This document shows positions 6,669 through 20,082 of a stretch of DNA of 64,000 nucleotides, piece after piece. Below the pieces are notes generated by a model. That model saw nothing but the letters and a program-made list of their open reading frames with translations. It was not told where the DNA came from and did no database searches. Position 1 is the first letter of the stretch. Each line of letters begins with the position of its first letter. This DNA is from Lentimicrobium saccharophilum (GTDB lineage Bacteria > Bacteroidota > Bacteroidia > Bacteroidales > Lentimicrobiaceae). The stretch lies in NCBI RefSeq assembly GCF_001192835.1, contig NZ_DF968182.1, positions 1,118,968-1,182,967 on the forward strand, in the 5' to 3' direction. Position numbers and translations under genes: made by a program.

Positions 6669-7419
6669 ATCCCTCGGGATATTCAATGTCTTCAAGAAAC
6701 AGCCCATGGGCCGGAACCGATTCGCCGGCGTCAGAGCGACTCCCGTTCAGGATCAGATCCCGGAAACCGGTTTCATCCATTTTCCCCTTACCCACTTCAA
6801 TCAGAGTTCCGGTTATTGCCCTTACCATATTCCTCAGGAACCTGTTGGCTTTTATATGATAAATCAGTAAACCGGGCTCTTCAATAAAATATGATTCGGA
6901 TATATGACAAATAGTTGAACCGGTTTCGGAACCCTTTTTCGAAAAACATGAAAACTCAGTGTATTCAGGCAATAATGAGGCGATGTGTTTCATGGCCTCA
7001 AGATTGAGTTTCCCTTCATATCTCCATGAAAAATCCGCCAAAAACGGGTTCTTTTTTCTGCTCAGGTAATATCTGTATGTTCTGGAAACCGCAGAAAATC
7101 GGGCATGAATTCCAGCCTCCACCGGAAAAATCTGAAACAAAGCAACTGAAGGAGGGAGCACCCTGTTCATCCGGTAAACCAACTCCTTTAATTCATCCGC
7201 ATGAAACCTGTGCTGAAAACCAAAATGGGCATAGTAATTCCGCGCATGAACTCCTGTATCGGTGCGACCGGCTCCTGTAACCGATATTTTTTCCCTGAGA
7301 AGCATTGACAGCGTTGATTCCAGGGATTGCTGCACCGAGGGAGATGCGGGCTGAACCTGCCATCCGTTAAATTCTTTGCCATTATATGCCAGATGAATAA
7401 AATACCTGAAACTGTCCAT
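6649..7419 (-). CDS. truA: tRNA pseudouridine synthase A (positions 38-40)
   Basis: A 256-residue TruA that isomerises uridines 38-40 in the anticodon stem-loop. The catalytic aspartate is in GAGRTDTGVHA, about residues 48-58. Other family elements are YNGKEFNGWQVQP near the N-terminus, the RTYRYYLS strand and FLRNMVRAITGTLIEVG in the second domain. The ATG at 7419 was chosen because the protein then begins just before the conserved first strand; the frame runs on to 7473 without similarity. It converges on the transketolase C-subunit gene and overlaps its last 20 bases. Confidence 0.93.
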   Translation of the reverse strand: MDSFRYFIHLAYNGKEFNGWQVQPASPSVQQSLESTLSMLLREKISVTGAGRTDTGVHARNYYAHFGFQHRFHADELKELVYRMNRVLPPSVALFQIFPVEAGIHARFSAVSRTYRYYLSRKKNPFLADFSWRYEGKLNLEAMKHIASLLPEYTEFSCFSKKGSETGSTICHISESYFIEEPGLLIYHIKANRFLRNMVRAITGTLIEVGKGKMDETGFRDLILNGSRSDAGESVPAHGLFLEDIEYPEGFRMKSV

Positions 7420-7537
7420 CGGGATAAAAGTACAAAATACAACCATACTTCCATGGTAGTCTGAACGAATCAAAAATTGAATTATCTGAATTTAGAATAG
7501 TTATAAATTAAGTAAAACATGCGAAAAAAGGACACTG

Positions 7538-7555
7538 TTGTTAATTAATTCACAA
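7538..7555. promoter_or_regulatory. Rex-type operator 1 of the hydC1B1A1 operon
   Basis: TTGTTAATTAATTCACAA is an 18-bp interrupted inverted repeat. It matches the Rex consensus TTGTGAAnnnnTTCACAA at 13 of the 14 specified positions; the one variant base, T in TTGTTAA, is a common Rex variant. It lies upstream of the -7 box. Rex is a repressor released by a high NADH/NAD+ ratio. The regulator gene itself is not in the window. Confidence 0.7.
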
Positions 7556-7564
7556 AAGAATTTC

Positions 7565-7572
7565 TACTTTTG
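7565..7572 (+). promoter_or_regulatory. -7 promoter box of hydC1B1A1
   Basis: TACTTTTG matches the Bacteroidota TAnnTTTG -7 element. A TTG at 7538-7540 is a possible -33 element but is 24 bp away, longer than usual. The box lies between the two Rex-type operators, which are centred 42 bp apart (four helical turns). Confidence 0.6.
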
Positions 7573-7579
7573 AGGTGAA

Positions 7580-7597
7580 TTGTTAATCAATTCACAA
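7580..7597. promoter_or_regulatory. Rex-type operator 2 of the hydC1B1A1 operon
   Basis: TTGTTAATCAATTCACAA has the same half-sites as operator 1 with a different 4-bp spacer. It lies just downstream of the -7 box, over the expected transcription start, which is a classical repressor position. Confidence 0.7.
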
Positions 7598-7644
7598 GTC
7601 ACACTCAATCTACTAATCAACAAAGTATTTTATCAACTAAAGTC

Positions 7645-7650
7645 GGAGGA
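7645..7650 (+). promoter_or_regulatory. Strong Shine-Dalgarno sequence for hydC1
   Basis: GGAGGA lies four bases before the ATG at 7655. Bacteroidota genes generally lack such sequences, so it stands out from the neighbouring genes. Confidence 0.6.
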
Positions 7651-7654
7651 TTAA

Positions 7655-8125
7655 ATGTTAACAACAGAAGCACTCGTAAAAGAGCTGGTTGAAAAAAACG
7701 GCAGAACCCGAAACAGCCTGATGCCGGTATTGCAGGGCATCGTGCAACAGGAACACTTCCTGTCGGAAGAAGCTTTACTGTGCGTTGCCAGGGAACTCGA
7801 TCTTGCAGCAGCAGATGTATACGGTACAGCCTCTTTTTACACGTTTCTCGACACTGTGCCGAGGGGAAAAAACATTATCAGGGTTTGCAAGACCATCACC
7901 TGCCACATGAAAGGCAAGGATGAAATCATCAACACACTGAGCAACGCACTTAAAATCAAGGTAGGTGAAACAACCCATGACAAGAAATTTACACTTTTGA
8001 CCGCCAATTGCCTGGGATGGTGTCACAAGGGACCAGTTATGCTGATCAACGATGAGGTTTATCCTGAACTTACGCCTCAGAAGGCTCTTGAAATTGTTGA
8101 AGAGTACGCCAAAAGCACTCACTAA
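7655..8125 (+). CDS. hydC: NuoE-like [2Fe-2S] subunit of NADH-dependent [FeFe]-hydrogenase 1 (HydC1)
   Basis: A 156-residue subunit of the thioredoxin-like [2Fe-2S] ferredoxin family. After an N-terminal helical bundle come the conserved YGTASFYTF segment and four cluster cysteines arranged as CKTITC (C-x4-C) and CLGWC (C-x3-C). In trimeric hydrogenases this subunit passes electrons between the flavin subunit HydB and the hydrogenase core. It opens an operon with hydB1 (6 bp downstream) and hydA1, behind a promoter flanked by two Rex-type operators. It is a distant paralogue of HydC2 at the end of the next operon. Confidence 0.88.
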   Translation: MLTTEALVKELVEKNGRTRNSLMPVLQGIVQQEHFLSEEALLCVARELDLAAADVYGTASFYTFLDTVPRGKNIIRVCKTITCHMKGKDEIINTLSNALKIKVGETTHDKKFTLLTANCLGWCHKGPVMLINDEVYPELTPQKALEIVEEYAKSTH

Positions 8126-8131
8126 ACCCAA

Positions 8132-9325
8132 ATGGTCACAAACAAAAACAATATCCAAATGGAAAACAATCTTAAAAAAGTTGATATAATATTCGAGGTC
8201 GACGACAAATGCACTCCGCTCGAAGTACTTGATAAAACGCTTAAAAGATCAGCAGATGATATTATCCTGGATCTGATCGACAGCGGTCTTAAAGGTCGTG
8301 GAGGCGCCGGATTTCCAACCGGACTCAAATGGAAATTCACCAGGAATGAATCAGGTGATGTAAAATATGTTATTTGCAATGCCGATGAGGGAGAACCGGG
8401 AACATTTAAAGACCGCGAGATCCTCGACCGCGTACCGGAAAAGATTTTCGCCGGTATGACTATCTGCGGCTATGTTATAGGGGCCAAGGAAGGTTACATC
8501 TACCTCAGGGGAGAATATAACTTCCTGTTGAAGAACCTGTTGAAGAAACTTGAGGACTTCAACAATGCGTTGAAAAAACGCAACATAGATTTCAGGATCT
8601 ATTTCAAGTCCGGCTCGGGCGCATATGTTTGCGGAGAAGAAAGTGCGTTGTTCGAATCCATGGAAGGGAAGCGCGGCGAGCCCCGCAACAAGCCCCCCTA
8701 CCCGACCGTTGCAGGTTACAACAGCAAACCTACCGTCATCAACAACGTAGAAACCCTTGTTTATACCACGATGATCTGCCACATGGGTCCTGAAAAATTC
8801 AAGGCCCTGGGAACCAGCGACTCCAGAGGGTCAAAAGTATTTTCCGTTTCAGGTGACACGCCGATTCCGGGAATCTACGAGCTGGAACTTGGCATGCCCC
8901 TGCATGAATTTGTGAATGAATTCGGTGATGGCGATACCAAAGCTGTTCAGGTAGGAGGCGCATCCGGTCACTGTGTACCTAGGAAGAAGTTCAATGATAC
9001 AATCATTGGTTTCGAAGGGATACCCACCGGAGGCTCCATGATGATTTTCAACAGTTCACGTTCAATGTATAACGTTCTTCATGATTACCTGGAATTCTTC
9101 ACCGAAGAGTCATGCGGGCAATGTACCCCCTGCCGGGTTGGTTGCCAGCAACTGCTTAAGGGAATAGAAGCGGTAAAACGTGGGGAACGCCCGCCTGCTT
9201 ACCTCGATGACCTGAAAAAGCTGACAGGGACCATGAAAATCGCTGCGAAATGCGGTCTTGGTCAATCGGTTGGCAATCCCTTCAATTCGATTATTGACAA
9301 TTTCAGGGAAGAGATTATTTACTAA
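8132..9325 (+). CDS. hydB: NuoF-like flavin subunit of [FeFe]-hydrogenase 1, short form (HydB1)
   Basis: A 397-residue NADH- and FMN-binding subunit. Present are GRGGAGFPTGLKW and NADEGEPGTFKDRE (FMN/NADH site), GAYVCGEESALFE, an SLBB domain, and the [4Fe-4S] motif ESCGQCTPCRVG with a later Cys in AKCGLGQ. It lacks the thioredoxin-like domain at the N-terminus and the two-[4Fe-4S] ferredoxin domain at the C-terminus that HydB2 has. NADH-dependent hydrogenases with such short HydB are reported not to need ferredoxin (Syntrophomonas wolfei type), so this complex may be non-bifurcating; that is inference. An ATG at 8159 is an alternative start. Confidence 0.9.
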   Translation: MVTNKNNIQMENNLKKVDIIFEVDDKCTPLEVLDKTLKRSADDIILDLIDSGLKGRGGAGFPTGLKWKFTRNESGDVKYVICNADEGEPGTFKDREILDRVPEKIFAGMTICGYVIGAKEGYIYLRGEYNFLLKNLLKKLEDFNNALKKRNIDFRIYFKSGSGAYVCGEESALFESMEGKRGEPRNKPPYPTVAGYNSKPTVINNVETLVYTTMICHMGPEKFKALGTSDSRGSKVFSVSGDTPIPGIYELELGMPLHEFVNEFGDGDTKAVQVGGASGHCVPRKKFNDTIIGFEGIPTGGSMMIFNSSRSMYNVLHDYLEFFTEESCGQCTPCRVGCQQLLKGIEAVKRGERPPAYLDDLKKLTGTMKIAAKCGLGQSVGNPFNSIIDNFREEIIY

Positions 9326-9422
9326 GTCAAAGGAAAAAAGTACAAAGTAAAGGGCAATGATAACCTCAGGCAATATGTACCGGAGGATATAAACCCCAAA
9401 GAACCAAAAAGCAAGCGAAACC
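9326..9422 (+). other. hydB1-hydA1 spacer
   Basis: A 97-bp gap inside the operon with no promoter box or terminator. It contains a CGGAGGA sequence (9381-9387) too far (about 35 bases) from the hydA1 ATG to act as its ribosome site. This may be the relic of a start region that moved. Confidence 0.3.
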
Positions 9423-11216
9423 ATGAGCAAATACCTTGTTAACCTTAAGATAAACAACATGCCCATAGCGGTGGAAGAGGGCACAACCATTCTTGAGGCA
9501 GCTAAAAAGCTGAATTTCAGAATCCCCACCTTATGTAATCATCCTGACCTTACTGTCGCCGGCAACTGCCGCGTTTGTGTGGTTGAAGTCAAGGGCGCCA
9601 GATTGCTGGCTGCCGCTTGTGCCACACCGGTTTCCGAAGGCATGGAAGTATTTACCAACAGTGAGAAAGTAAGGGTTTCACGGAAACACATCGTTGAACT
9701 CCTGCTTTCAGAACACAATGCAGATTGCACCAAATGTTTTAAAAACGGGCATTGCGAACTGCAGGACCTGGCCAGCGAATACCGTATAGGCGATCACGTA
9801 TTTCTCGATCTCGTAAAACCGGAGAGTCTGATTCAGGATATTTCATCTCCCTCCATCGTAAAAGATGACAGCAAATGCATCCGCTGCCAGCGCTGTGTCA
9901 GAACCTGCGCCGAACTGCAGGGTGTAAGTGCACTTGCGGTAGTGAATAAGGGAGATCACCAGAAAATATCGACCTTCCTGAACAAACCGATGCACGAGGT
10001 GGTATGTACCAACTGCGGTCAATGTATCAACAGATGCCCGACAGGCGCACTTACAGAACGCAATTACATTGAAGAAGTCTGGAATGCCATCTACGATCCC
10101 TCAAAATTTGTGGTGGTTCAGACAGCCCCTGCTACCCGCATCGCCCTTGGAGAAGACCTCGGCATCCCGGTTGGTGAAAGAGTAACCGGCAAGATGGTTG
10201 CATCACTCAAGAAACTAGGTTTCAATAAAGTGCTGGATACCGATTTTACCGCCGACCTCACCATTATGGAAGAGGGAACCGAACTGCTTACCCGCCTGAA
10301 ACGCGCACTGGTCGATAAAGACGAGAAAGTTGTCCTGCCTATGATGACTTCCTGTTCCCCAGGATGGATCAAATTCCAGGAGCACATGTATTCGGACATG
10401 CTCGACAACCTGTCTACCTGCAAATCGCCGCAACAAATGTTCGGTGCAGTTGCCAAAACCTACTATGCCGATAAGATCAATATTAAAGCACAGGATATGG
10501 TTGTTGTCTCGATCATGCCCTGCGTAGCCAAAAAGTTTGAATGCGAAAGACCGGAAATGCGCGACAGCGGATATCAGGATGTTGATTATGTATTGACTAC
10601 CAGGGAACTTGCGATGATGATCAAACAGGCAGGTATTGATTTCAACAAGCTGGAAGATGAGCATTACGACAGTATCCTGGGAGAATCATCCGGAGCTGCT
10701 GTTATCTTCGGCGCTACCGGCGGTGTAATGGAAGCAGCTTTGCGAACTGCCTATGAAATTGTTACCGGACGTGAAGTTCCGTTCACTAATCTGAACATTC
10801 AACCGGTCCGCGGTATGGAAGGCATCAAGGATGCCACCATCAAGATCAAGAATGTAAAACCCGAATGGAGCTTCCTTGAAGGGGTTGACCTTCACGTTGC
10901 AATCGCGCACGGACTTGCGAATGCAAGACAACTGATGGAAAAAGTGAGAAAAGGGGAAGCAGCCTATCACTTTATTGAAGTGATGGGATGTCCCGGCGGT
11001 TGTCTGGGCGGCGGAGGCCAACCCATTCCCACGTCACCTGAAATCCGCAAGAAACGCTCTGAAGCAATTTACCAGGAAGATGAAGATATGCCTATCCGCA
11101 AGTCTCATGAGAATCCTGAAATTGTGGAAATCTACAAGGAATTCCTTGGCGAACCTCTGAGTCATAAATCTCATGACTTGTTGCACACACACTATAAACC
11201 AAGGAAGAGATACTAA
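9423..11216 (+). CDS. hydA: [FeFe]-hydrogenase 1 catalytic subunit (HydA1), TSCSP variant
   Basis: A 597-residue hydrogenase. Domains in order are an N-terminal [2Fe-2S] ferredoxin fold (CNHPDLTVAGNCRVC), a NuoG-type His-Cys3 [4Fe-4S] site (HNADCTKCFKNGHC), two [4Fe-4S] motifs (CIRCQRCVRTC, CTNCGQCINRCP), the H-cluster domain and a small-subunit-like C-terminus (LSHKSHDLLHTHY). H-cluster motifs are L1 TSCSPGW (309-315), L2 IMPCVAKKFE (Cys367) and L3 EVMGCPGGCLGGGGQP (Cys523, Cys527). L1 carries Ser312 where most enzymes, including HydA2, have Cys. By Clostridium pasteurianum CpI numbering this is the cluster-ligand position, while the preceding proton-relay Cys is kept. The rest of the protein is intact. 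Confidence 0.92.
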   Translation: MSKYLVNLKINNMPIAVEEGTTILEAAKKLNFRIPTLCNHPDLTVAGNCRVCVVEVKGARLLAAACATPVSEGMEVFTNSEKVRVSRKHIVELLLSEHNADCTKCFKNGHCELQDLASEYRIGDHVFLDLVKPESLIQDISSPSIVKDDSKCIRCQRCVRTCAELQGVSALAVVNKGDHQKISTFLNKPMHEVVCTNCGQCINRCPTGALTERNYIEEVWNAIYDPSKFVVVQTAPATRIALGEDLGIPVGERVTGKMVASLKKLGFNKVLDTDFTADLTIMEEGTELLTRLKRALVDKDEKVVLPMMTSCSPGWIKFQEHMYSDMLDNLSTCKSPQQMFGAVAKTYYADKINIKAQDMVVVSIMPCVAKKFECERPEMRDSGYQDVDYVLTTRELAMMIKQAGIDFNKLEDEHYDSILGESSGAAVIFGATGGVMEAALRTAYEIVTGREVPFTNLNIQPVRGMEGIKDATIKIKNVKPEWSFLEGVDLHVAIAHGLANARQLMEKVRKGEAAYHFIEVMGCPGGCLGGGGQPIPTSPEIRKKRSEAIYQEDEDMPIRKSHENPEIVEIYKEFLGEPLSHKSHDLLHTHYKPRKRY

Positions 11217-11236
11217 TCCTTGATGATTTTCCGGCA

Positions 11237-11263
11237 AAGAGGATGGCTAATGGCCGTCCTCTT
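11237..11263 (+). terminator. Hairpin after hydA1
   Basis: An 11-bp stem (AAGAGGATGGC paired with GCCGTCCTCTT, one G-T pair) with a TAATG loop begins 21 bp after the hydA1 stop. The T tract is weak (GGCATTTTC). It probably ends the first hydrogenase transcript. Confidence 0.6.
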
Positions 11264-11349
11264 GGCATTTTCAGAATTTTAAATTGCACTGTTTAAGTAT
11301 TTGTTTGCGTGCATCTTAAAGACCCTTGTTTAGAATAAAAATAAATTCA

Positions 11350-11367
11350 TTGTTATTTTTATAACAA
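11350..11367. promoter_or_regulatory. Perfect palindrome, Rex-like operator 1 of the second hydrogenase operon
   Basis: TTGTTATTTTTATAACAA is a perfect 7-4-7 inverted repeat with the Rex half-site ends TTGT/ACAA and the same 18-bp geometry. It shares its last base with the next site. It is a weaker Rex match than its neighbour (11 of 14 specified bases). Confidence 0.5.
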
Positions 11368-11384
11368 TGTGAATTTATTCACAA
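11367..11384. promoter_or_regulatory. Rex-type operator 2 of the second hydrogenase operon
   Basis: ATGTGAATTTATTCACAA matches the Rex consensus TTGTGAAnnnnTTCACAA at 13 of 14 specified bases. It sits directly upstream of the -33 element of the promoter at 11390-11421. Confidence 0.72.
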
Positions 11385-11389
11385 TAAAA

Positions 11390-11421
11390 TTTGTTTGGCA
11401 TGATTAAACTATTTAATTTTG
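11390..11421 (+). promoter_or_regulatory. Promoter of the ten-gene hydrogenase operon
   Basis: A -33 TTTG (11390-11393) and a -7 TAATTTTG (11414-11421) are separated by 20 bp, close to the ideal Bacteroidota promoter. The first gene starts at 11481, giving a leader of roughly 50 bases. Confidence 0.72.
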
Positions 11422-11480
11422 CCGCTCCATTTGTAAGAAGTTTGTGACCCCACACCGAAAGGTGCTTAATTTTAAAATGA

Positions 11481-11825
11481 ATGAAAATCAAAGAGGTTGT
11501 CGAATTACTGAATGCCAGGGTTGTTTCAGGACAAGACCAGCTTGATGCTGAAGTGGAATATGCATTTGCATCCGACCTGATGAGTGATGTGCTCACCATT
11601 GAAACGGATAATCTGCTTTTACTTACAGGGCTTGCAAACCTGCAAACCATCCGGACTGCTGAGATGTCTGACATCAGCAAAATAATTTTTGTCAGAAAGA
11701 AAAAGGCAACCGATGAAATGATCCGACTGGCCGCTGAGAATGATATGATACTGATTGAGTGTGACTACTCCATGTTCAAATCCAGCGGAATCCTGTTCAA
11801 ATCCGGTGTAAAGCCGGTATATTAA
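11481..11825 (+). CDS. DRTGG-domain protein, first copy
   Basis: A 114-residue stand-alone DRTGG domain, the small alpha/beta domain named after a motif in phosphotransacetylase N-regions. It opens MKIKEVVELLNARVVSG, followed by the family-typical FASDLMSDVLT segment and a central FVRKKK strand. Its biochemical role is unknown. Such proteins recur in clostridial and other anaerobe hydrogenase clusters next to HATPase and group-D hydrogenase-like genes. It begins the ten-gene operon, 60 bp after the -7 box, and is a paralogue of the 13645-13980 gene. Confidence 0.75.
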   Translation: MKIKEVVELLNARVVSGQDQLDAEVEYAFASDLMSDVLTIETDNLLLLTGLANLQTIRTAEMSDISKIIFVRKKKATDEMIRLAAENDMILIECDYSMFKSSGILFKSGVKPVY

Positions 11826-11836
11826 AAATAACCGTG

Positions 11837-12253
11837 ATGCATTTCGAGTTTCATGTAGAGGGAGGTAACTTTTCCAAAGCGGGATCGGCATCCAGCCAGT
11901 TGAAGAAAATTCTGAAACAGCTGAATGTTGATCCAAGGGTCATTAAAAGGGTGGTAGTCGCCCTTTATGAGGCTGAAGTAAACATTGTGGCCCATGCTTA
12001 CCAGGGAACTATTTACATTAACATCGACACAGAAAAGATCGAAATCAGACTGATTGACGAAGGACCGGGGATAGAGGACATAGAACTTGCCATGCAGCAG
12101 GGCTATTCAACTGCCTCGCCTGAAGTGCGTGAAATGGGTTTTGGGGCCGGTATGGGCCTTCCGAACATTAAAAACAACAGCGACCGGATGTCAGTTACCT
12201 CACAGGTTGGAAAAGGCACCACTGTTGAAATTATTACATTTCTGAACAACTAA
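11837..12253 (+). CDS. Anti-sigma-factor-type HATPase (SpoIIAB/RsbW-like)
   Basis: A 138-residue single-domain ATPase of the GHKL fold. The N box is EAEVNIVAHAY, the G1 box DEGPGI and the G2 box GFGAGMGLPNIK. In the family these small proteins are Ser/Thr kinases that bind sigma factors or phosphorylate anti-anti-sigma proteins. No sigma factor or STAS partner is encoded in the window, so the target is unknown. ATG at 11837 follows directly on a GTG at 11834. It sits between a DRTGG protein and the group-D H-cluster protein, which suggests that the latter's redox state may control it (inference). Confidence 0.75.
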   Translation: MHFEFHVEGGNFSKAGSASSQLKKILKQLNVDPRVIKRVVVALYEAEVNIVAHAYQGTIYINIDTEKIEIRLIDEGPGIEDIELAMQQGYSTASPEVREMGFGAGMGLPNIKNNSDRMSVTSQVGKGTTVEIITFLNN

Positions 12254-12265
12254 TTGATCAAAACA

Positions 12266-13642
12266 ATGGAATCAGCTATTTTTCACCATGCACTCAAGAT
12301 CAGGGAAGATCTGTGTATCGGCTGTTCCCATTGTATGAATGTGTGTCCTACTGAAGCGATCAGGGTAAAAAACGGGAAATCATATCTTATTGAGAACCGT
12401 TGTGTTGATTGCGGTGAATGCTTCAGGGTTTGCCCTGTAAGTGCCATAATCATTGATCATGATGACTTCAACTACATCTTTGACTACAAATACCGCGTTG
12501 CACTTGTTCCATCGGTATTTACCGGTCAGTTCCCTGAAGACATTTCACTGCGCCAGATACACAGTGTACTCCTTGAACTTGGATTTACACACGTTTATGA
12601 GGTCGAAAACGGTGTTGAAATCCTTACAGAAGCGATAAACACCTTTGCAGGCAAAGTCTCTGACAAAAAACCATTGATTTCTTCTTTCTGTCCTGCTATT
12701 GTGAGGCTTATCCAGGTGAAGTTTCCTGCCCTGGCCGACCACATCATGCTGCTGAAGCCTCCGTTGGATGTATCAGCATTACATATCCGGCATGAATTTG
12801 AGAAGCAGGGAATTCCTCTGGAAGAAACCGGCATTTTCTATGTGACGCCATGCGCGGCAAAAATAGCTGCCATCAAAGATCCGGTCGGAGAAAAGGCTTC
12901 GCCCATCACGGGTGTAATCAACATGGACATTCTTTTCAGCAAGGTATTCCGCCAGGTAAAGCAACGCAATCTGCAAAGCTGCGCCCTGCCTGTCGGCAGC
13001 AAACTGTCAAAAAAAGCTACCTGCTGGTCGCTCACCAATGGTGAAGCCCCCTATGCAAAAGGAAGATCGCTGGCCATTGACGAAATTCACAATGTAATCG
13101 AGTTCCTGGAACGGCTCGAAAATGAGGAAGTTTCCGATATCGATTTCCTTGAGCTCAGGGCCTGCGATGAAAGTTGCGCAGGTGGGGTACTTACCATTGC
13201 CAATCGTTTTCTGACTGCTGAGCGTTTGAGAAATCACACCGATGAATATCATCCCGAAAAAGATTTTAACCATCCGGATGCGATAAATCCAATAGATGAA
13301 AACAGGGATTTTCTCCTGAACAATATCGGCATTGGTGAAATCAAGCCCCGGTCGATGATGAAACTGGATGAAAATATGGCAGAGGCAATGCGGAAAATGG
13401 AAAAAGTAAACCGCATCATGCAACTATTGCCAATGGTGGATTGCGGCATCTGCGGAGCTCCCAGTTGCCAGGCGCTTGCCCAGGACATTGCCCAGGGAAA
13501 TGCAACCATTAATTATTGTATATTTATTCAAAAAATACTTGAACAAAAGGGTGAACTCAGCCTGGAAGAAAGCATCAAAATAATGCAGGACATCTGGGGA
13601 TTCGGGAAAACCAACAAATACCGGGACCTGAAAGGAATCTGA
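12266..13642 (+). CDS. Group-D [FeFe]-hydrogenase-like H-cluster protein, putative sensor
   Basis: A 458-residue protein. Two [4Fe-4S] motifs (CIGCSHCMNVC, CVDCGECFRVC; residues 17-56) precede an H-cluster-like domain and a C-terminal Fe-S domain (MVDCGICGAPSCQALA). All four H-cluster ligand cysteines are present: Cys142 in SSFCP, Cys196 in TPCAAK, Cys300 and Cys304 in CDESC. The proton-relay Cys is Phe141, and the L2 glutamate (MPCxxKxxE) is Ala202. Loss of the proton path argues against turnover and for a sensing role, as proposed for groups C and D. It lies in an operon with HATPase, DRTGG and PHP proteins. ATG 12266 was chosen over a TTG at 12254. Confidence 0.82.
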   Translation: MESAIFHHALKIREDLCIGCSHCMNVCPTEAIRVKNGKSYLIENRCVDCGECFRVCPVSAIIIDHDDFNYIFDYKYRVALVPSVFTGQFPEDISLRQIHSVLLELGFTHVYEVENGVEILTEAINTFAGKVSDKKPLISSFCPAIVRLIQVKFPALADHIMLLKPPLDVSALHIRHEFEKQGIPLEETGIFYVTPCAAKIAAIKDPVGEKASPITGVINMDILFSKVFRQVKQRNLQSCALPVGSKLSKKATCWSLTNGEAPYAKGRSLAIDEIHNVIEFLERLENEEVSDIDFLELRACDESCAGGVLTIANRFLTAERLRNHTDEYHPEKDFNHPDAINPIDENRDFLLNNIGIGEIKPRSMMKLDENMAEAMRKMEKVNRIMQLLPMVDCGICGAPSCQALAQDIAQGNATINYCIFIQKILEQKGELSLEESIKIMQDIWGFGKTNKYRDLKGI

Positions 13643-13644
13643 AT

Positions 13645-13980
13645 ATGAAAGTGAGAGAAGTTGCGGAAAAACTGGGGCTGACTGTAATCAGTGGTGCTGC
13701 CGGACTTGACAATGAGATCAATGAAGGATATTCATCCGACTTGTTAAGCGATGTCATGGGCAGCGCCGGATCAGGCGACATCTGGATTACACTTCAGACC
13801 CATAAAAATGTGATGGCAATCGCATCCCTGAAAGACCTTGCAGCCGTAATCCTGGTGAAGGGATTTGCCCCTGATCCTGACATGGCTGAACAGAGCGACG
13901 AAGAAAGTATTCCGGTGCTCGGTACCAGCGAGGACACATTTACAATCAACGGCAGATTGTATAATCTGTTAAAACAATGA
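13645..13980 (+). CDS. DRTGG-domain protein, second copy
   Basis: A 111-residue stand-alone DRTGG domain, starting two bases after the group-D protein stop. It begins MKVREVAEKLGLTVISG and shares the YSSDLLSDVMG segment with the first copy (FASDLMSDVLT), so the two probably arose by duplication. The C-terminus ends FTINGRLYNLLK. Function is unknown; the fixed position between the H-cluster protein and the PHP protein suggests it belongs to the same signalling or assembly module. Confidence 0.75.
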   Translation: MKVREVAEKLGLTVISGAAGLDNEINEGYSSDLLSDVMGSAGSGDIWITLQTHKNVMAIASLKDLAAVILVKGFAPDPDMAEQSDEESIPVLGTSEDTFTINGRLYNLLKQ

Positions 13981-13993
13981 ACCTGAATACAAG

Positions 13994-14731
13994 ATGAAGG
14001 AATTCAGCGCCGACCTTCACATTCATACTGTACTTTCGACTTGCGGCAGCCTTGAAATGAGCCCGCGAAACATTGTACGGAAGGCCCTGGAAGAAAAACT
14101 TGACATCATCGGAATCACTGACCACAATTCCACCCGGCAATGCCGGGAAGTATGCAGAGAGGCATCAAAGGCAGGCATCACTGTATACACCGGAGTTGAG
14201 GTAACCACAAAAGAAGAAGTTCACTGCCTGGCGTTCTTTGAAACATTTGACATTCTGGATGCATTTCAGGAATACCTTAACCGTTATTTGCCTGACATCA
14301 TGAATCATCCTAACCTGTTTGGATACCAGGTTGTTGTTGATGAAGAGGAAAATATATGTTATGAAGAGCCAAAACTGCTGATATCTGCAATTTCGCAAAG
14401 CATTAGCCAGGTTGAAGTTGCGGTACACCAAATGGGCGGACTGTTTATTCCCGCTCACATCGACCGGCAGAAGTTCAGCCTTACGAGTCAGCTTGGCTTT
14501 GTCCCGCCCGATTTGAATGCAGACGCCTTTGAATTGTCGAAAAACACATCCATTGAAGACTTTCTGAAAAAATTCCCCTATCTGCGCGGAAAAACTTTTA
14601 TCAGGAACTCTGATGCCCATCAGCCGGAAGTGATCGGGAGTATTCGCACCCGGCTCCGGATGGAAAATACCGGTTTTAATGAATTCCGTAAAGCGCTGCA
14701 GGCAAAAGAAGGAAGAGAGGTGGTGGTATGA
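13994..14731 (+). CDS. PHP-domain metal-dependent phosphoesterase
   Basis: A 245-residue PHP protein. Metal-ligand motifs are DLHIHT (residues 7-12), GITDHNS near 41, GVEVTT near 68 with HCLAFF, PAHIDRQ near 155 and NSDAHQP near 214. PHP proteins cleave phosphoester bonds in nucleotides, sugars or protein phospho-residues such as phosphohistidine or phosphotyrosine. Its substrate is unknown. Its stop overlaps the start of the following HATPase gene by four bases, so the two are translationally coupled, and one could undo a phosphorylation made by the other (inference). Confidence 0.82.
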   Translation: MKEFSADLHIHTVLSTCGSLEMSPRNIVRKALEEKLDIIGITDHNSTRQCREVCREASKAGITVYTGVEVTTKEEVHCLAFFETFDILDAFQEYLNRYLPDIMNHPNLFGYQVVVDEEENICYEEPKLLISAISQSISQVEVAVHQMGGLFIPAHIDRQKFSLTSQLGFVPPDLNADAFELSKNTSIEDFLKKFPYLRGKTFIRNSDAHQPEVIGSIRTRLRMENTGFNEFRKALQAKEGREVVV

Positions 14732-15279
14732 TGAAGGATTTTGCCATGCACATCATGGACATAGCGCAGAACTCAGTTTCTTCCGGTGCTACTGAAATAG
14801 ATCTGCTGATTGAGGAATCCGTTGCAAATGACCGGCTCATGATGATCATCAGGGACAACGGAAAAGGGATACCTGCCGACATGATCGGAAAAGTGACCGA
14901 TCCTTTTGTAACCAGTCGTAAAACCCGAAAGGTCGGGCTTGGGCTTCCGTTACTCAAACAACATGCGGATTCCACAGGAGGTGGATTAGCCATAGAATCA
15001 GGAAGTGGAAAAGGCACGACGGTAACGGCAACATTCGGCCTTTCGCATCTTGACCGGCAACCCTTCGGCGATATTGCCGGAACCGTTGTTCTGCTGGCAG
15101 CTGCAAATCCGGAAATCAGGTTTATTTACGAACACAGAACCCCTTCGGGGATGTACCGTTTTGATACAGCTGAAGTAAATGAAATGCTAGAAGGAATGTC
15201 AATATCAGAAGCTCCGGTAATCCGGTTTCTGAAAGAAATGATCAGCGAAAATCTGAAAGAAATAAAGATTTCAGGATAA
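14728..15279 (+). CDS. Histidine-kinase-type ATPase domain protein without phospho-acceptor domain
   Basis: A 183-residue protein made of a GHKL ATPase domain (N box DIAQNSVSSGA, G1 DNGKGIP, G2 GLGLPLLKQHA) and a C-terminal tail of about 70 residues with no known motif. There is no dimerisation/His-phosphotransfer domain, no membrane segment and no response regulator gene nearby. It may phosphorylate a separate partner or act as an ATP-dependent chaperone-like switch. It is coupled by a 4-bp overlap to the PHP gene and precedes the hydrogenase structural genes in the same operon. Confidence 0.78.
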   Translation: MMKDFAMHIMDIAQNSVSSGATEIDLLIEESVANDRLMMIIRDNGKGIPADMIGKVTDPFVTSRKTRKVGLGLPLLKQHADSTGGGLAIESGSGKGTTVTATFGLSHLDRQPFGDIAGTVVLLAAANPEIRFIYEHRTPSGMYRFDTAEVNEMLEGMSISEAPVIRFLKEMISENLKEIKISG

Positions 15280-15307
15280 TAAACAACACACAAACAAAAT
15301 TTTAAAC

Positions 15308-15706
15308 ATGGGACAAGTAAAATCACTGGCTGACCTGCGGAAGATCAAAGAAGAACTGCAGGGGAAAATGAGCCTCAGGGAGAAGAGCAACAACCCTGAA
15401 AGCCTGGTACAGGTGAAGGTTGCCATGGCTACCTGTGGAATTGCTTCAGGAGCCAAACAGGTAATGGATTTCTTTATTGAAGAATTTGACAAGAGAAACA
15501 TCCAGGCAGTAGTTACCCAAACAGGTTGCATGGGTTATTGTTTTGCAGAACCTACCGTTGAAGTTACCCTTCCGGGAAAAGAACCCGTTGTTTTCGGCTA
15601 TGTGGATACCAGGAAAGCCGATGATATCATTGAAAAATATGTAAAAAACGGTGAACTCGTTGAGGGTATCATTCCTGTTAATTATGAAACCATTGAAAAG
15701 AAATAA
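15308..15706 (+). CDS. Thioredoxin-like [2Fe-2S] ferredoxin of the hydrogenase operon
   Basis: A 132-residue protein of the thioredoxin-like ferredoxin fold. Cluster cysteines are in MATCGIASGA and TGCMGYCFAEP. About 40 N-terminal residues are basic and helical. It resembles the N-terminal domain of the next gene's product and HydC. It could be an additional electron-transfer subunit of hydrogenase 2 or a soluble carrier. Its stop codon touches the Shine-Dalgarno sequence of hydB2. Confidence 0.8.
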   Translation: MGQVKSLADLRKIKEELQGKMSLREKSNNPESLVQVKVAMATCGIASGAKQVMDFFIEEFDKRNIQAVVTQTGCMGYCFAEPTVEVTLPGKEPVVFGYVDTRKADDIIEKYVKNGELVEGIIPVNYETIEKK

Positions 15707-15711
15707 GGAGG
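15706..15711 (+). promoter_or_regulatory. Strong Shine-Dalgarno sequence for hydB2
   Basis: AGGAGG (inside AAGGAGGAG) lies seven bases before the ATG at 15719. Such a perfect anti-16S match is unusual for Bacteroidota, and it is the second one seen in the hydrogenase region. Confidence 0.6.
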
Positions 15712-15718
15712 AGCGGTA

Positions 15719-17512
15719 ATGGCAAAATATAAAATGCATGTTTTGGTCTGCGGTGGCACAGGGTGTCATGCTTCGGAAAGCGACACGCTGCTCGATAACC
15801 TGAAAACCATTGTTGCCGATAAAGGTCTTGACAATGAGGTTCAGGTGATTGCGACAGGATGTTTCGGCTTTTGCGAGAAAGGTCCCATCGTAAAAATCAT
15901 GCCCGACAACACATTCTACACCCAGGTGAGTCCTGCAGATGCACGGGAGATTGTAGAAGAACATCTGATCAAGGGGCGTAAGGTGAACCGCCTGCTCTAT
16001 GTTGACCCCGAAAACAAGGAGCATATTTCTGATTCCAAACACATGGGCTTCTATAAGAAGCAGCTCAGGATCGCCCTGCGCAACTGCGGTTTTATAGATC
16101 CGGAAAATATTGATGAATACATTTCACGTGACGGCTATGAGGCCCTGGCCAAATGTCTGACCGAAATGACTCCGCAGCAGGTAATTGAGGAGATGAAGAA
16201 GTCGGGTTTGCGTGGACGCGGAGGCGGAGGTTTCTCCACGGGCCTGAAATGGGAAATCACCAGCAAATCAGTATCAGATATAAAATACGTTGTATGCAAT
16301 GCCGATGAAGGAGACCCGGGCGCATTCATGGACCGTTCCATTCTGGAAGGTGACCCCCACTCCGTTATTGAGGCAATGGCCATCTGCGGCTATTGTATCG
16401 GTGCATCATACGGACTGGTATACATCCGGGCTGAATACCCGCTAGCCATCGACCGCCTGAAAACAGCCATTAACCAGGCAAGGGAATATGGACTTCTTGG
16501 AAATGATATCCTTGGCACCGGCTTTGCCTTTGACATTGAACTTCGTTATGGCGCCGGCGCTTTTGTCTGCGGCGAAGAAACTGCACTGATCCATTCAATG
16601 GAGGGACTCAGGGGCGAGCCCACCGTTAAGCCTCCGTTTCCATCTGTTTCAGGATATTATGAAAAACCGACTAACGTCAACAACGTTGAAACATTTGCCA
16701 ACGTGCCCGTTATCATCAACAAAGGTGCAGACTGGTTTGCAAGCATCGGAACCGAGAAATCAAAGGGCACCAAGGTATTCGCCCTTGCCGGAAAGATCAA
16801 CAATGTGGGACTGATAGAAGTTCCCATGGGCACCACTCTTCGCGAAGTAATCTATGAGATTGGCGGCGGTATCAAAGACGGCAAAAAATTCAAGGCTGTT
16901 CAAACCGGAGGACCATCAGGCGGATGCCTTACCGAGAAACACCTTGACACCCCAATTGATTATGACAACCTGCTCGCCAGCGGCTCAATGATGGGCTCCG
17001 GTGGTATGATTGTGATGGATGAGGACGACTGCATGGTTTCTATGGCGAAGTTCTACCTTGACTTCACTGTTGAAGAATCATGCGGAAAATGTTCACCCTG
17101 CCGGATTGGTAACAAGAGGCTTTATGAAATTCTCGATAAAATCACTCAGGGGAAAGGGACCCGCGATGACATCGACAGCCTAAGGAATCTCAGCTATGTG
17201 ATCAAAGACACTGCGCTCTGTGGGCTGGGACAGACCTCTCCCAACCCGGTACTTTCCACCATCGACAATTTCTGGGATGAATATATTGAACATGTTACTG
17301 ACAAGAAATGTCGTTCGGGCCAATGCAAAGCCTTGTTACAATATTACATTGATCCGGAAAATTGCGTTGGTTGTACAGCATGCGCCCGTAATTGCCCCGT
17401 CAATGCAATTTCAGGCGAGCGGAAAGGCATTCATGTAATTGACCAGGCTACCTGTATCAAATGCGGCGCTTGTCTTGAAAAGTGCAAATTCAATGCTGTG
17501 TTTATCAAATAA
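15719..17512 (+). CDS. hydB: NuoF-like flavin subunit of [FeFe]-hydrogenase 2, full length (HydB2)
   Basis: A 597-residue subunit. An N-terminal thioredoxin-like [2Fe-2S] domain (CGGTGCHAS, GCFGFCEKGP) is followed by the NuoF core with GRGGGGFSTGLKW, NADEGDPGAFMDRS and GAFVCGEETAL. Then come the SLBB domain and its [4Fe-4S] site (ESCGKCSPCRIG), and a C-terminal ferredoxin domain with two [4Fe-4S] motifs (CVGCTACARNCP, CIKCGACLEKC). This is the architecture of HydB in electron-bifurcating HydABC complexes, which couple NADH and ferredoxin to H2. HydB1 in the first operon lacks both end domains. Confidence 0.92.
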   Translation: MAKYKMHVLVCGGTGCHASESDTLLDNLKTIVADKGLDNEVQVIATGCFGFCEKGPIVKIMPDNTFYTQVSPADAREIVEEHLIKGRKVNRLLYVDPENKEHISDSKHMGFYKKQLRIALRNCGFIDPENIDEYISRDGYEALAKCLTEMTPQQVIEEMKKSGLRGRGGGGFSTGLKWEITSKSVSDIKYVVCNADEGDPGAFMDRSILEGDPHSVIEAMAICGYCIGASYGLVYIRAEYPLAIDRLKTAINQAREYGLLGNDILGTGFAFDIELRYGAGAFVCGEETALIHSMEGLRGEPTVKPPFPSVSGYYEKPTNVNNVETFANVPVIINKGADWFASIGTEKSKGTKVFALAGKINNVGLIEVPMGTTLREVIYEIGGGIKDGKKFKAVQTGGPSGGCLTEKHLDTPIDYDNLLASGSMMGSGGMIVMDEDDCMVSMAKFYLDFTVEESCGKCSPCRIGNKRLYEILDKITQGKGTRDDIDSLRNLSYVIKDTALCGLGQTSPNPVLSTIDNFWDEYIEHVTDKKCRSGQCKALLQYYIDPENCVGCTACARNCPVNAISGERKGIHVIDQATCIKCGACLEKCKFNAVFIK

Positions 17513-17525
17513 TACCCGGAAAGAA

Positions 17526-19298
17526 ATGGAAACAATTAAATTAACGATAGATAATAAAGTACTTGAGGTAGCCAAGGGCACCACAATACTCAAAGCTGCA
17601 AAGGAGGCCGGAATTCACATCCCTACCCTTTGTTACCTGCATCTCCACGACCTGAATATTGAAAATAAACCCGCCGGATGCCGTGTTTGCGTTGTTGAAG
17701 TTGCCGGCCGCCGCAACCTGGCCCCTGCCTGCGTTACGGAATGTACCGAAGGCATGGTCGTGAGCACCCATAATATAAGGGTACTGAATGCAAGAAAAAC
17801 AGTTCTTGAGCTTATCCTCTCCGACCACCCCACCGATTGCCTTATCTGCGCAAAAAATGGCAACTGTGAACTGCAGACCATGGCTCAGGAATTTGGCATT
17901 CGCAAACTGCATTATGAGGGAGAGCAGTCAACATACCGTGAGGACACCTCCCCTGCCATTATCCGCGATGTGGATAAATGTATCATGTGCCGCCGCTGCG
18001 AGATGATGTGCAACGAAGTTCAGACAGTAGGCGTTCTTTCAGCTGTAAACCGCGGATTTATGTCGGTTGTAGCCCCCGCTTTCGAAATGAACCTTGATCA
18101 CAGTGTCTGTACCTATTGCGGTCAATGTGTGGCCGTTTGTCCGACCGGCGCCCTCACCGAAGTTGACCATACCAATGCCGTTATCAGGGCACTTGCCGAT
18201 CCTACCAAAACGGTAGTAGTTCAGACTGCTCCGGCAGTAAGGGCAGCCCTGGGTGAAGAATTTGGCATGGAGCCGGGCACCCTGGTAACCGGGAAACTTG
18301 CCGCCGCATTGCGCAGGCTGGGCTTCAACTACGTTTTTGATACAGACTTTGCCGCCGACCTCACTATTATGGAAGAAGGAACCGAGCTGCTTGACCGTCT
18401 GACCCGTCATCTGAACGGAGATAAAGATGTTCCGTTGCCGATCCTTACCTCCTGCTGTCCGGGCTGGGTGAGCTTTTTCGAGCACCAGTTCCCTGAAATG
18501 AGGGATATTCCTTCAACGGCGCGCAGTCCGCAGCAGATGTTCGGAGCTATCGCCAAAACTTATTTCGCTGACAAAATCAATGTGAAACGCGAAGACCTGG
18601 TGGTTGTTTCCATTATGCCCTGCCTGGCTAAAAAGTTCGAATGCCAGCGTGATGAATTTGCCACCAACGGCAATCCGGATGTTGACTTCTCCATTTCGAC
18701 CCGCGAATTGGCCCACCTGATCAAGCAGTCGAACATTGAATTCAATGCCCTGCCGGATGAGGATTTCGACAATCCGCTTGGCGAATCCACCGGAGCTGCG
18801 GTTATCTTCGGAACAACCGGAGGGGTGATTGAAGCTGCAGTCCGTACCGCCTATGAGGTGCACACGGGTAAAAAACTTGAGAAAGTTGATTTCGAAGAGT
18901 TGAGGGGAATGGAATATATCCGCGAAGCAACCATTGACTTCAACGGACTTCCGATCAGGATAGGCATTGCGCACGGACTTGGTAATGCGCGTAAACTGCT
19001 GCAGGATATCAAGGACGGAAAATCTGAATTCCATGCGATTGAAATTATGGCCTGCCCGGGCGGTTGCATCGGGGGTGGCGGACAACCCTTACATCATGGA
19101 GATTCTTCCATCATTAAAGCTCGTCAGAAGGCCCTTTATCAGGAAGATACCAATAAGACCATCCGTAAATCGCACGAAAATCCTTACATCATCCAACTTT
19201 ATGAAGAGTTCCTCGGTAAACCGCTGAGTGAAAAATCTCATCACCTGCTTCATACTCATTACTTCGATAAAAGCAAGGAGATAAAAGTTGTAGAATAA
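17526..19298 (+). CDS. hydA: [FeFe]-hydrogenase 2 catalytic subunit (HydA2)
   Basis: A 590-residue catalytic subunit of a trimeric NAD-linked [FeFe]-hydrogenase (group A3 type). Domains in order are a [2Fe-2S] fold, the His-Cys3 site (HPTDCLICAKNGNC), two [4Fe-4S] motifs (CIMCRRCEMMC, CTYCGQCVAVCP), the H-cluster domain and a small-subunit-like tail. H-cluster motifs are canonical: TSCCPGW with Cys310-Cys311, IMPCLAKKFE with Cys366, and EIMACPGGCIGGGGQP with Cys510 and Cys514. ATG 17526 was chosen because it starts right at the [2Fe-2S] domain; the longer frame would overlap hydB2. The maturases HydE, HydF and HydG are not in the window. Confidence 0.94.
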   Translation: METIKLTIDNKVLEVAKGTTILKAAKEAGIHIPTLCYLHLHDLNIENKPAGCRVCVVEVAGRRNLAPACVTECTEGMVVSTHNIRVLNARKTVLELILSDHPTDCLICAKNGNCELQTMAQEFGIRKLHYEGEQSTYREDTSPAIIRDVDKCIMCRRCEMMCNEVQTVGVLSAVNRGFMSVVAPAFEMNLDHSVCTYCGQCVAVCPTGALTEVDHTNAVIRALADPTKTVVVQTAPAVRAALGEEFGMEPGTLVTGKLAAALRRLGFNYVFDTDFAADLTIMEEGTELLDRLTRHLNGDKDVPLPILTSCCPGWVSFFEHQFPEMRDIPSTARSPQQMFGAIAKTYFADKINVKREDLVVVSIMPCLAKKFECQRDEFATNGNPDVDFSISTRELAHLIKQSNIEFNALPDEDFDNPLGESTGAAVIFGTTGGVIEAAVRTAYEVHTGKKLEKVDFEELRGMEYIREATIDFNGLPIRIGIAHGLGNARKLLQDIKDGKSEFHAIEIMACPGGCIGGGGQPLHHGDSSIIKARQKALYQEDTNKTIRKSHENPYIIQLYEEFLGKPLSEKSHHLLHTHYFDKSKEIKVVE

Positions 19299-19368
19299 GG
19301 GAAGATTGCCGGTACGGAAATTTCCTTACCGGCTGAACAAACAACACAAAATCAAAAGAATTCAGATC

Positions 19369-19848
19369 ATGGCAAATATTAAATTATCCGCAGAAAAGCT
19401 TGATGAATTGAAAGCTGTCTGCAAATCGTTTAACAACGATAAGGGAGAACTGATCAATGTGCTGCACAAGGCGCAGGGAATCTTCGGTTATCTTCCCGCG
19501 GAAGTACAGGAAGTGATCGCCAAGGAGTTAAACATCTCCGTTGCTCATGTTTACGGAGTGGTATCTTTTTACTCTTTCTTTACCATGTTACCAAAAGGCG
19601 AGCATCCGGTTTCTATCTGCCTTGGCACAGCCTGCTATGTGCGCGGTGCTGAAAAAGTTATTGATGAATTCAAGCGACTGCTTAACATCAATGTAGGAGA
19701 AACAACCCCCGACGGTAAGTTTTCGCTGGCATGTCTGCGCTGTGTGGGCGCCTGCGGGCTTGCTCCGGTTGTGCTCGTTGGTGAAAAAGTTTACGGGCGT
19801 GTGGCTCCCGAAGGCGTTAAGGATATCGTTGCAGAATACGCTAACTAG
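19369..19848 (+). CDS. hydC: NuoE-like [2Fe-2S] subunit of [FeFe]-hydrogenase 2 (HydC2)
   Basis: A 159-residue thioredoxin-like ferredoxin subunit with YGVVSFYSFF and cluster cysteines CLGTAC (C-x4-C) and CVGAC (C-x3-C). It closes the ten-gene operon, 70 bp after hydA2 and before a strong terminator. The subunit order differs from the first operon (hydC-B-A there, hydB-A-C here), so the two gene sets are not a simple recent tandem duplication. ATG 19369 removes a non-conserved 21-residue extension. Confidence 0.9.
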   Translation: MANIKLSAEKLDELKAVCKSFNNDKGELINVLHKAQGIFGYLPAEVQEVIAKELNISVAHVYGVVSFYSFFTMLPKGEHPVSICLGTACYVRGAEKVIDEFKRLLNINVGETTPDGKFSLACLRCVGACGLAPVVLVGEKVYGRVAPEGVKDIVAEYAN

Positions 19849-19872
19849 TTGTTTTCATTAGTGTTTGGTAGA

Positions 19873-19904
19873 AGCGGCCGGATTATTTCCGGCTGCTTTT
19901 TTTT
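19873..19904 (+). terminator. Rho-independent terminator of the hydrogenase 2 operon
   Basis: A 10-bp stem, AGCGGCCGGA with TCCGGCTGCT (one G-T pair), is followed directly by eight T. Confidence 0.88.
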
Positions 19905-20031
19905 ACACATATAACAAAAATAATTACACTCAAGTTTTAGTTTCATCCGATCCTTATCATGCTATAATCTCGCCTGACCAGGCGATATTTAGCAAGGGGA
20001 TCACGCCCGGGTTAAAATGTGAGAAAAAGAA

Positions 20032-20059
20032 AGAAGGGCTGTCCATGGACAACCCTTCT
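20032..20059 (-). terminator. Rho-independent terminator of sucC
   Basis: AGAAGGG-TGTCC and its complement form a 28-nt near-perfect hairpin with one C-A mismatch. On the minus strand it is followed by TTTCTTTTTCTC. It starts 23 bp after the sucC stop. Confidence 0.78.
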
Positions 20060-20082
20060 AAACCACATTCACAAAACAAAAA

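Follow-up and report, generated by a model that had tools for sequence, protein, structure and literature searches.

By which route does a signal travel onward from a group D [FeFe]-hydrogenase? This question, which is left open in Land 2020 (PMC8163306) and in a 2026 paper (PMC13104023) as far as the accessible parts of these texts go (the same restriction holds for all papers cited below), is raised by six genes of Lentimicrobium saccharophilum that occupy positions 11481 to 15279 of the 64,000 nucleotides analysed here (contig NZ_DF968182.1, positions 1,118,968 to 1,182,967; referred to as the window). In order along the + strand they are named D1, H1, HydS, D2, PHP and H2; HydS is the H-cluster protein, and the gas is written as hydrogen in order to keep it apart from the H2 protein. 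Comparison across related loci established three things at the level of sequence: the genes form one conserved set, this set consists of two halves, and the evolution of H1 is the one most dependent on HydS. For the model as a whole, in which the cassette is a signalling device of two parts that serves NADH-linked electron-bifurcating complexes, we regard the chances as even; the reality of the cassette and the communication from HydS to H1 are likelier than the phosphorylation chemistry.

Conservation of the six-gene cassette

All six open reading frames sit where the first-pass annotation of the window had placed them: D1, a DRTGG-fold protein of 114 residues (DRTGG-1; 11481..11825); H1, a SpoIIAB/RsbW-like GHKL ATPase of 139 residues (HATPase-1; 11834..12253) and probable hub; HydS, a group D-type H-cluster protein of 462 residues (12254..13642); D2, a second DRTGG protein of 111 residues (DRTGG-2; 13645..13980); a PHP-family phosphoesterase of 245 residues (13994..14731); and the H2 protein, a GHKL ATPase of the histidine-kinase CA/MutL type with 183 residues (HATPase-2; 14728..15279), from which an acceptor domain is absent. 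The gaps between successive genes amount to 8, 0, 2, 13 and -4 bp, followed by 28 bp to the next gene, in agreement with the description of the six as consecutive and tightly spaced.

The locus survey consisted of one scan of genome contigs with patterns derived from Bacteroidota sequences, and the best 80 of 557 relatives were analysed; 79 of these carry Bacteroidota-type titles and one (L096) is titled Alphaproteobacteria. The series D1-H1-HydS-D2-PHP-H2 was complete and in order in 69 of the 80 loci. Strains of Marinifilum and Labilibaculum are among the carriers of the cassette. Ten of the 11 incomplete loci run off a contig end, and the remaining one (L080) is considered below. A Firmicute record (L112) contains all six genes within 6 kb in a rearranged form, with D1, H1, HydS, D2 and PHP on one strand and H2, FdN (a small protein encoded after H2 in most loci) and a group A6 hydrogenase on the other; the cross-phylum statement rests on this single locus, which stems from a plasmid-labelled record. 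In L112, an open reading frame of 231 residues (8247-8939) lies between H1 and HydS. The PLSDB records L112 and L113, both labelled as plasmids, look like pieces of chromosomes (gyrA is found in L113).

In addition, co-occurrence was determined in 295 genomes of the order, with E-value limits of 1e-50 for HydS, 1e-15 for PHP and 1e-12 for H1. HydS was found in 85, PHP in 87 and H1 in 91 genomes, and H1 was present in all 85 genomes with HydS. HydS and PHP occurred together in 82 genomes, HydS only in 3, PHP only in 5 and neither in 205; as the genomes are related, Fisher values for these counts were not taken as probabilities. Among the genomes with HydS only, one (G193) is explained by a contig end, and two (G086, G161) hold a divergent cassette in which PHP was not found. 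Among those with PHP only, one (G088) is a case of a contig start and the other four hold the cassette without HydS, while the two genomes with H1 only (G263, G268) are 76 and 66% complete. The survey thus upheld the earlier expectation of co-occurrence: the six genes form a real conserved cassette and rarely travel independently. No relative was found in viral contigs; in the control genome of Thermotoga maritima, DRTGG, HydG and Fe_hyd_lg_C matches were present.

HydS was characterised by family scan, motif reading and alignment. It matches Fe_hyd_lg_C, Fer4 (twice) and the C-terminal FeS family PF04060. Its start is a TTG at 12254; an in-frame ATG at 12266 yields the residue numbers of the first-pass annotation, which are lower by 4. 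The ligand cysteines listed there as 142, 196, 300 and 304 as well as Phe141 and Ala202 were all recovered and are, in the numbering used here, C146, C200, C304, C308, F145 and A206, with F145 standing in the place of the proton-relay cysteine and A206 in that of the L2 Glu. Across 111 aligned homologues, the four ligand cysteines and F145 each reach a conservation of 97% or more. T198 occupies the place of Met353 and Arg302 that of Met497 in CpI; the C-terminal motif Cx2Cx4Cx16C is formed by cysteines 397, 400, 405 and 422, and the family scan gave no PAS match. The marks of group D named in Land 2020 (PMC8163306) are the absence of C299, Ser or Thr at M353, a C-terminal Cx2Cx4Cx16C and the lack of PAS. 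Judged by its residues, HydS bears the marks of group D (M2e), namely the ligand cysteines, two N-terminal [4Fe-4S] sites, the C-terminal motif, F145, T198 and a PAS-free architecture, in line with the group originally proposed. In a rough tree with long branches, two group C-like rows and four others fall outside the clade formed by the HydS set. HydE, HydF and HydG are encoded in this genome with scores above cut-off; therefore, the H-cluster can in principle be made. At G000:C2:910602-924535, two HydS-like matches (frames of 621 and 676 residues), a Rex-type protein and HydG lie close together, perhaps as a group C sensor cluster.

Two halves, and H1 as the probable reader of HydS

The cassette can be divided. 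In five genomes of four families, the groups D1-H1-HydS and D2, PHP, H2 stand apart, yet both are present, and in three genomes of another family (f101) the halves are swapped; in one further genome (G234, family f2) PHP alone was seen, at a contig end. The same division emerged from the covariation of evolutionary rates, which was calculated for 143 branches of mean length >0.03 from 86 loci with all six genes. Inside the input half, the values were 0.44 for D1-HydS, 0.37 for H1-HydS and 0.26 for D1-H1; inside the output half, they were 0.47 for PHP-H2, 0.28 for D2-H2 and 0.23 for D2-PHP; between the halves, covariation never exceeded 0.18. Among the 10 possible splits into triplets, D1-H1-HydS against D2-PHP-H2 was the best, with 0.272 vs 0.091 for the next (bootstrap 0.15-0.39). 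These findings support, and do not prove, a composition of two halves.

The role of H1 can best be followed in cassettes that lack HydS. Four loci (L116-L119), which belong to three families and of which two share a genus, contain D1-H1-D2-PHP-H2 in order without HydS, and no HydS was found elsewhere in these genomes at 1e-50. The idea that the module is built around the H-cluster protein did not hold, as 4 of the 295 genomes and two more distant loci have cassettes that lack HydS and keep the remaining five genes in order; HydS as the core of the cassette was rejected because these five genes persist without it. Branch lengths relative to the other genes were compared on a fixed tree of 90 loci with the five non-HydS genes, 55 of which had a reference branch >0.15 (a cut-off chosen once). 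For L119, L116, L118 and L117, the H1 branch, measured against the four remaining genes, ranked 1, 2, 3 and 5 of 55. The corresponding ranks were 41, 2, 6 and 44 for D1; 6, 3, 38 and 33 for D2; 40, 55, 46 and 48 for PHP; and 25, 33, 17 and 1 for H2. The odds of such H1 ranks are about 6 in a million if the rows are exchangeable, which they are not fully.

In two loci of other families (L157, L160), the cassette likewise lacks HydS and H1 bears two N-terminal CBS domains (Pfam 4e-27 and 1e-26); in one divergent lineage (L135, L136, of which L135 was domain-scanned), D1 is fused to H1. The simplest reading of the rate shift is that contact with HydS constrains H1. Because H1 speeds up most where HydS is lost, and because H1 carries CBS domains in two cassettes without HydS, H1 probably reads HydS. 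Of the signal path originally suggested, from the H-cluster protein to a kinase/phosphatase pair, the link from HydS to H1 has gained support from rate shift and covariation, so that the path as a whole is partly supported. Residue H54 of H1 was considered as a marker of HydS contact and rejected: it is Y or F in 4 of 6 HydS-less H1 sequences, but also Y in 3 of 111 HydS-bearing ones.

Partner proteins, transcription and adjoining enzymes

Family scans support the gene families named at the outset, with reserves for D1 and H1; residue conservation was read from alignments of 103-113 homologues per gene. D1 is PucR/DRTGG-like by Pfam under both cut-offs (DRTGG score 20.1 vs 25.2), but its AlphaFold2 (AF2) model, with a predicted local distance difference test (pLDDT) value of 95.6, has the DRTGG fold (template modelling, TM, score 0.85 to 2IOJ) and also matches 3L2B. 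D2 scores 32.8 bits with Pfam DRTGG (cut-off 25.2); it thus belongs to the family by score and D1 by fold. Both share the conserved motif SDLxSDV, which in D1 reads SDLMSDVL (mostly kept in 107 homologues) and of which the Firmicute D2 retains part only. D2 residues Q51, H53 and N55 are at least 97% kept in 110 homologues, but not in the Firmicute D2. Compared with the PDB, the D2 profile matched HPr kinase at 0.00016, and the single sequence gave no match.

H1 belongs to HATPase_c_2. Its best NCBIfam match is SpoIIAB with 65.5 bits, under the cut-off of 135 bits, and its sequence also matches SpoIIAB chains. E46, N50, DxGxG (75-79), R99 and GFGAGMGL are conserved in 113 homologues; E46 and N50 are the N-box Glu and Asn of the SpoIIAB/RsbW kinases. 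As these two residues are kept, H1 could phosphorylate a partner. The PHP protein matches Pfam PHP (43 bits, cut-off 26.4) and PHP_C, and H9, H11, C17, D43, H44, E69, H77, H155, D207 and H209 are at least 97% conserved in 110 homologues; Pfam score and metal-site residues together assign it to the PHP phosphoesterases, and with its metal site kept it could remove phosphate. The H2 protein combines HATPase_c with a conserved C-terminal part; its AF2 model (pLDDT 91.2) has a fold like the CA domains of WalK and ZraS, and like MutL. No DHp domain with an acceptor His was found in it, so that this lone CA-type domain with its C-terminal part does not qualify as a sensor histidine kinase.

Rex-like sites stand before both operons of the window: two adjoining operators at 11350-11367 and 11368-11383 precede D1, and two sites in tandem at 7538-7555 and 7580-7597 precede hydC1. 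A protein with a Rex-type N-terminal domain is encoded near hydG. A match to at least 12 of 14 positions of the Rex consensus was found before D1 in 64 of 104 upstream regions vs 2.7% of mononucleotide shuffles and none of 81 coding stretches. Rex is the likely transcriptional layer for the operon. Since Rex-like operators precede the cassette, its own output is more likely post-translational, and Rex is a more plausible regulator of hydrogenase expression than the module. A Bacteroidota-type promoter match (TTTG-N20-TAnnTTTG) at 11390..11421 on the + strand is weak alone: the motif occurs 6 times in the window vs 2.6 expected, and 5 of 100 shuffles reach 6. Scans for sigma-70 promoters and terminators in 11150-15800 gave matches no more frequent than chance, and an Rfam scan of 6500-20500 gave none at the gathering threshold.

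These results bear on the explanation that the cassette controls transcription of the hydrogenase genes, with HydS switching an H1 that works like an anti-sigma or partner-switching factor, in analogy to the proposed regulation of hydrogenase synthesis by a HydS in Ruminococcus albus. We consider it unlikely. H1 is closest to SpoIIAB and shares E46 and N50 with the SpoIIAB/RsbW partner-switching kinases; moreover, according to a 2025 paper, HydS of R. albus appears to regulate HydA2 synthesis (PMC11837493), and HydDB lists kinase- and phosphatase-linked group C proteins as putative hydrogen sensors (PMC5037454). However, no STAS antagonist, sigma factor or DNA-binding domain is encoded among the nine window proteins scanned, the wider genome not having been searched, and the family scan found no DNA-binding domain in the six cassette proteins. 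The relatives of H1 are fused to DRTGG or CBS domains, the curated SpoIIAB cut-off is missed, and Rex-like sites already stand before the operon. An anti-sigma role of H1 was rejected owing to the missed cut-off and the absence of partner genes among the nine proteins.

We return to the post-translational reading and to the enzymes on which the cassette may act. In the window it is flanked on both sides by hydrogenase sets. The downstream set, which had been noted at the outset, begins with fdN (15308..15706), coding for a small Trx-like [2Fe-2S]-type protein with weak family matches only, and continues with hydB2 (NuoF-like subunit, 15719..17512, read from the sequence and from its constant position among related loci), hydA2 (group A-type [FeFe]-hydrogenase, 17526..19298, which groups with HydA1 of the window in the tree) and hydC2 (NuoE-like subunit, 19369..19848, matched by the hydC1 profile), thus spanning 15308-19848 on the + strand. 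To this was added a second bifurcating-type set upstream, hydC1-hydB1-hydA1 (7655..11216, + strand), whose hydA1 is assigned to group A6 with 897 bits (cut-off 765). HydB1 (8132-9325) has 397 residues and HydB2 597, and no FdN-like gene adjoins hydB1.

FdN directly follows the H2 gene in 59 of the 69 complete loci; in the other 10, some of them at contig ends, no part of the complex is found there. Group A-type hydrogenase sets adjoin the cassette in most loci whose downstream region was covered. In L116, the neighbour is an NAD-type formate dehydrogenase (TIGR01591, 901 bits, cut-off 666), in L135 a NuoG-like protein (208 bits, under the cut-off of 470), and in L158, L160 and L161 an HdrA2-like protein with a NuoG-type N-terminus (429, 791 and 445 bits, under the cut-off of 1100); L159 is arranged alike, as judged from gene positions only. 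Loci L158 and L161, and L159 on the evidence of position, combine an HdrA-type protein with HydS itself. Common to the different enzymes are the small FdN, a NuoF-like HydB and a NuoE-like HydC. A gene of 285-290 codons lies just upstream of D1 in L158 (10062-10916) and L161 (7202-8071); the L161 product gave flavin/NAD-binding and 4Fe-4S matches. Parabacteroides distasonis has the six genes amid unrelated ones, with no hydrogenase neighbours, and in five further loci (L139, L141, L142, L146, L147) the sequence retrieved around the six genes holds no hydrogenase structural genes. The view that the module needs an adjoining hydrogenase was abandoned on account of these stand-alone cassettes and of the formate dehydrogenase and HdrA-type neighbours.

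The same loci bear on the explanation that the genes serve assembly or repair, with the GHKL ATPases and HydS building or inserting cofactors and HydS being a scaffold instead of a sensor. GHKL folds include chaperone-like ATPases, the cassette is in an operon with structural genes, and nine genomes with HydS are without recognisable HydEFG; yet HydS-less cassettes adjoin enzymes that do not depend on an H-cluster (formate dehydrogenase, HdrA-like proteins), several families have the six genes by themselves, and TamHydS, the group D protein of Thermoanaerobacter mathranii, is itself an active, though slow, hydrogenase (PMC8163306, PMC13104023), so that we judge this explanation distinctly improbable. 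Slightly less probable still is that HydS is a slow hydrogenase of the usual kind, and that the remaining genes are a separate regulator merely sharing its operon, for HydS can indeed be lost while the rest stays, but H1 evolves faster once it is gone, and split operons keep D1, H1 and HydS together, with covariation among the three.

A two-part model and its significance

In the two-part model, HydS would read hydrogen or the redox state of ferredoxin/NADH and control H1, the SpoIIAB-like ATPase, which would work with D1 in the input half. The output half would consist of D2, the PHP phosphoesterase and the H2 protein, usually adjoining FdN-HydB-HydA-HydC. H1 may phosphorylate a partner or bind it in an ATP-dependent manner, the simplest candidates being D2 or a subunit of the complex, and PHP might reverse this mark; the SDLxSDV motif of D1 and D2 would be the first place to look for it. 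The H2 protein may act on FdN/HydB/HydC, the diaphorase part, which is retained where a different catalytic subunit is present. The outcome would probably be a post-translational tuning of the complex, the amount of which would be set by Rex.

HydS may be one interchangeable input, replaced in two cassettes by the CBS domains fused to H1; in the four HydS-less cassettes L116-L119, no alternative input was recognised. A wider proposal, which we put forward tentatively and would rather doubt than assert, is that a widespread cassette with exchangeable sensors governs flavin-based bifurcating complexes: H1 would be the socket for a hydrogen/redox input (HydS) or an adenylate input (CBS), and the DRTGG-PHP-GHKL half would reversibly modify the diaphorase shared by hydrogenase, formate dehydrogenase and HdrA-type enzymes.

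Several points weigh against the two-part model. Hydrogen sensing, phosphotransfer and protein contact are all predicted from sequence and the phospho-acceptor is putative, and the substrates of PHP enzymes are mostly small molecules or nucleic acids. L080 contains HydS-D2-PHP-H2 without D1-H1 despite 6.5 kb of room upstream, and in L112 the H2 gene is parted from D2-PHP; therefore, the halves are not strict. Part of the rate covariation may stem from adjacency or joint transfer. The HydS-less cases are few, L116 also stands high for D1 (rank 2) and D2 (rank 3), and L117 for H2 (rank 1); due to the exceptions at H54, no single residue tracks HydS. The output half is linked to the complex by position, a link that stand-alone cassettes lack. 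The Rex test followed sight of the sites in the window, and the genomes are related. Finally, the nine of 85 HydS genomes in which none of HydE, HydF and HydG reached its curated cut-off, including four genomes that are 99% complete, are hard to reconcile with hydrogen sensing there. All nine carry other Fe_hyd_lg_C proteins. For seven of them (not G170 and G304), HydS motifs were read, and all four were kept in six; in the HydS of L144 (genome G113), two of the four were unmatched by the search patterns. A different maturation route, an apo-HydS acting without the diiron site, or gaps in the genomes are possible reasons.

Among the closest known systems is that of TamHydS (group D/M2e), which shares with HydS the domain plan, the missing C299, Ser/Thr at M353, Cx2Cx4Cx16C and the lack of PAS, and whose gene precedes a bifurcating hydrogenase and has an HATPase as neighbour (Land 2020, PMC8163306). 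HydS differs in having Phe at C299 and Arg at M497, where TamHydS has Leu, and the accessible text of that paper mentions neither DRTGG proteins nor a phosphatase. In bifurcating loci of Thermoanaerobacter, a histidine kinase gene and a group D-like gene also precede the bifurcating set (PMC3608648); the accessible part of that account describes no D1, D2, PHP, halves, swapped inputs or enzymes. The group C proteins HydS of Thermotoga maritima, HfsB of Thermoanaerobacterium and HydS of R. albus are likewise proposed hydrogen or redox sensors near hydrogenases, but are described, in the sources at hand, with PAS domains and kinase/phosphatase output, and HydS of the window lies in a clade separate from two such proteins in the rough tree. 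On pRUMAL01 of R. albus, an H-cluster protein, which has no PAS match at 1e-4, is followed by a SpoIIE phosphatase and a 4Fe-4S protein. In the literature searched, which was covered in part so that an earlier description is possible, no account of DRTGG/PHP partners, halves, swapped inputs or enzymes was found.

Group D is regarded as a putative sensor with an HATPase neighbour (PMC8163306), and the 2026 paper argues against the signal being a redox change at the C-terminal cluster (PMC13104023). To the onward route of this signal, the cassette contributes H1, assisted by D1, as a candidate receiver and a putative output half. If the two-part model is true, it indicates a way in which fermenting bacteria may control electron bifurcation, the step balancing NADH, ferredoxin and hydrogen, with one controller fitting several enzymes; and the wider proposal of exchangeable sensors, if true, would explain signalling by group D [FeFe]-hydrogenases.

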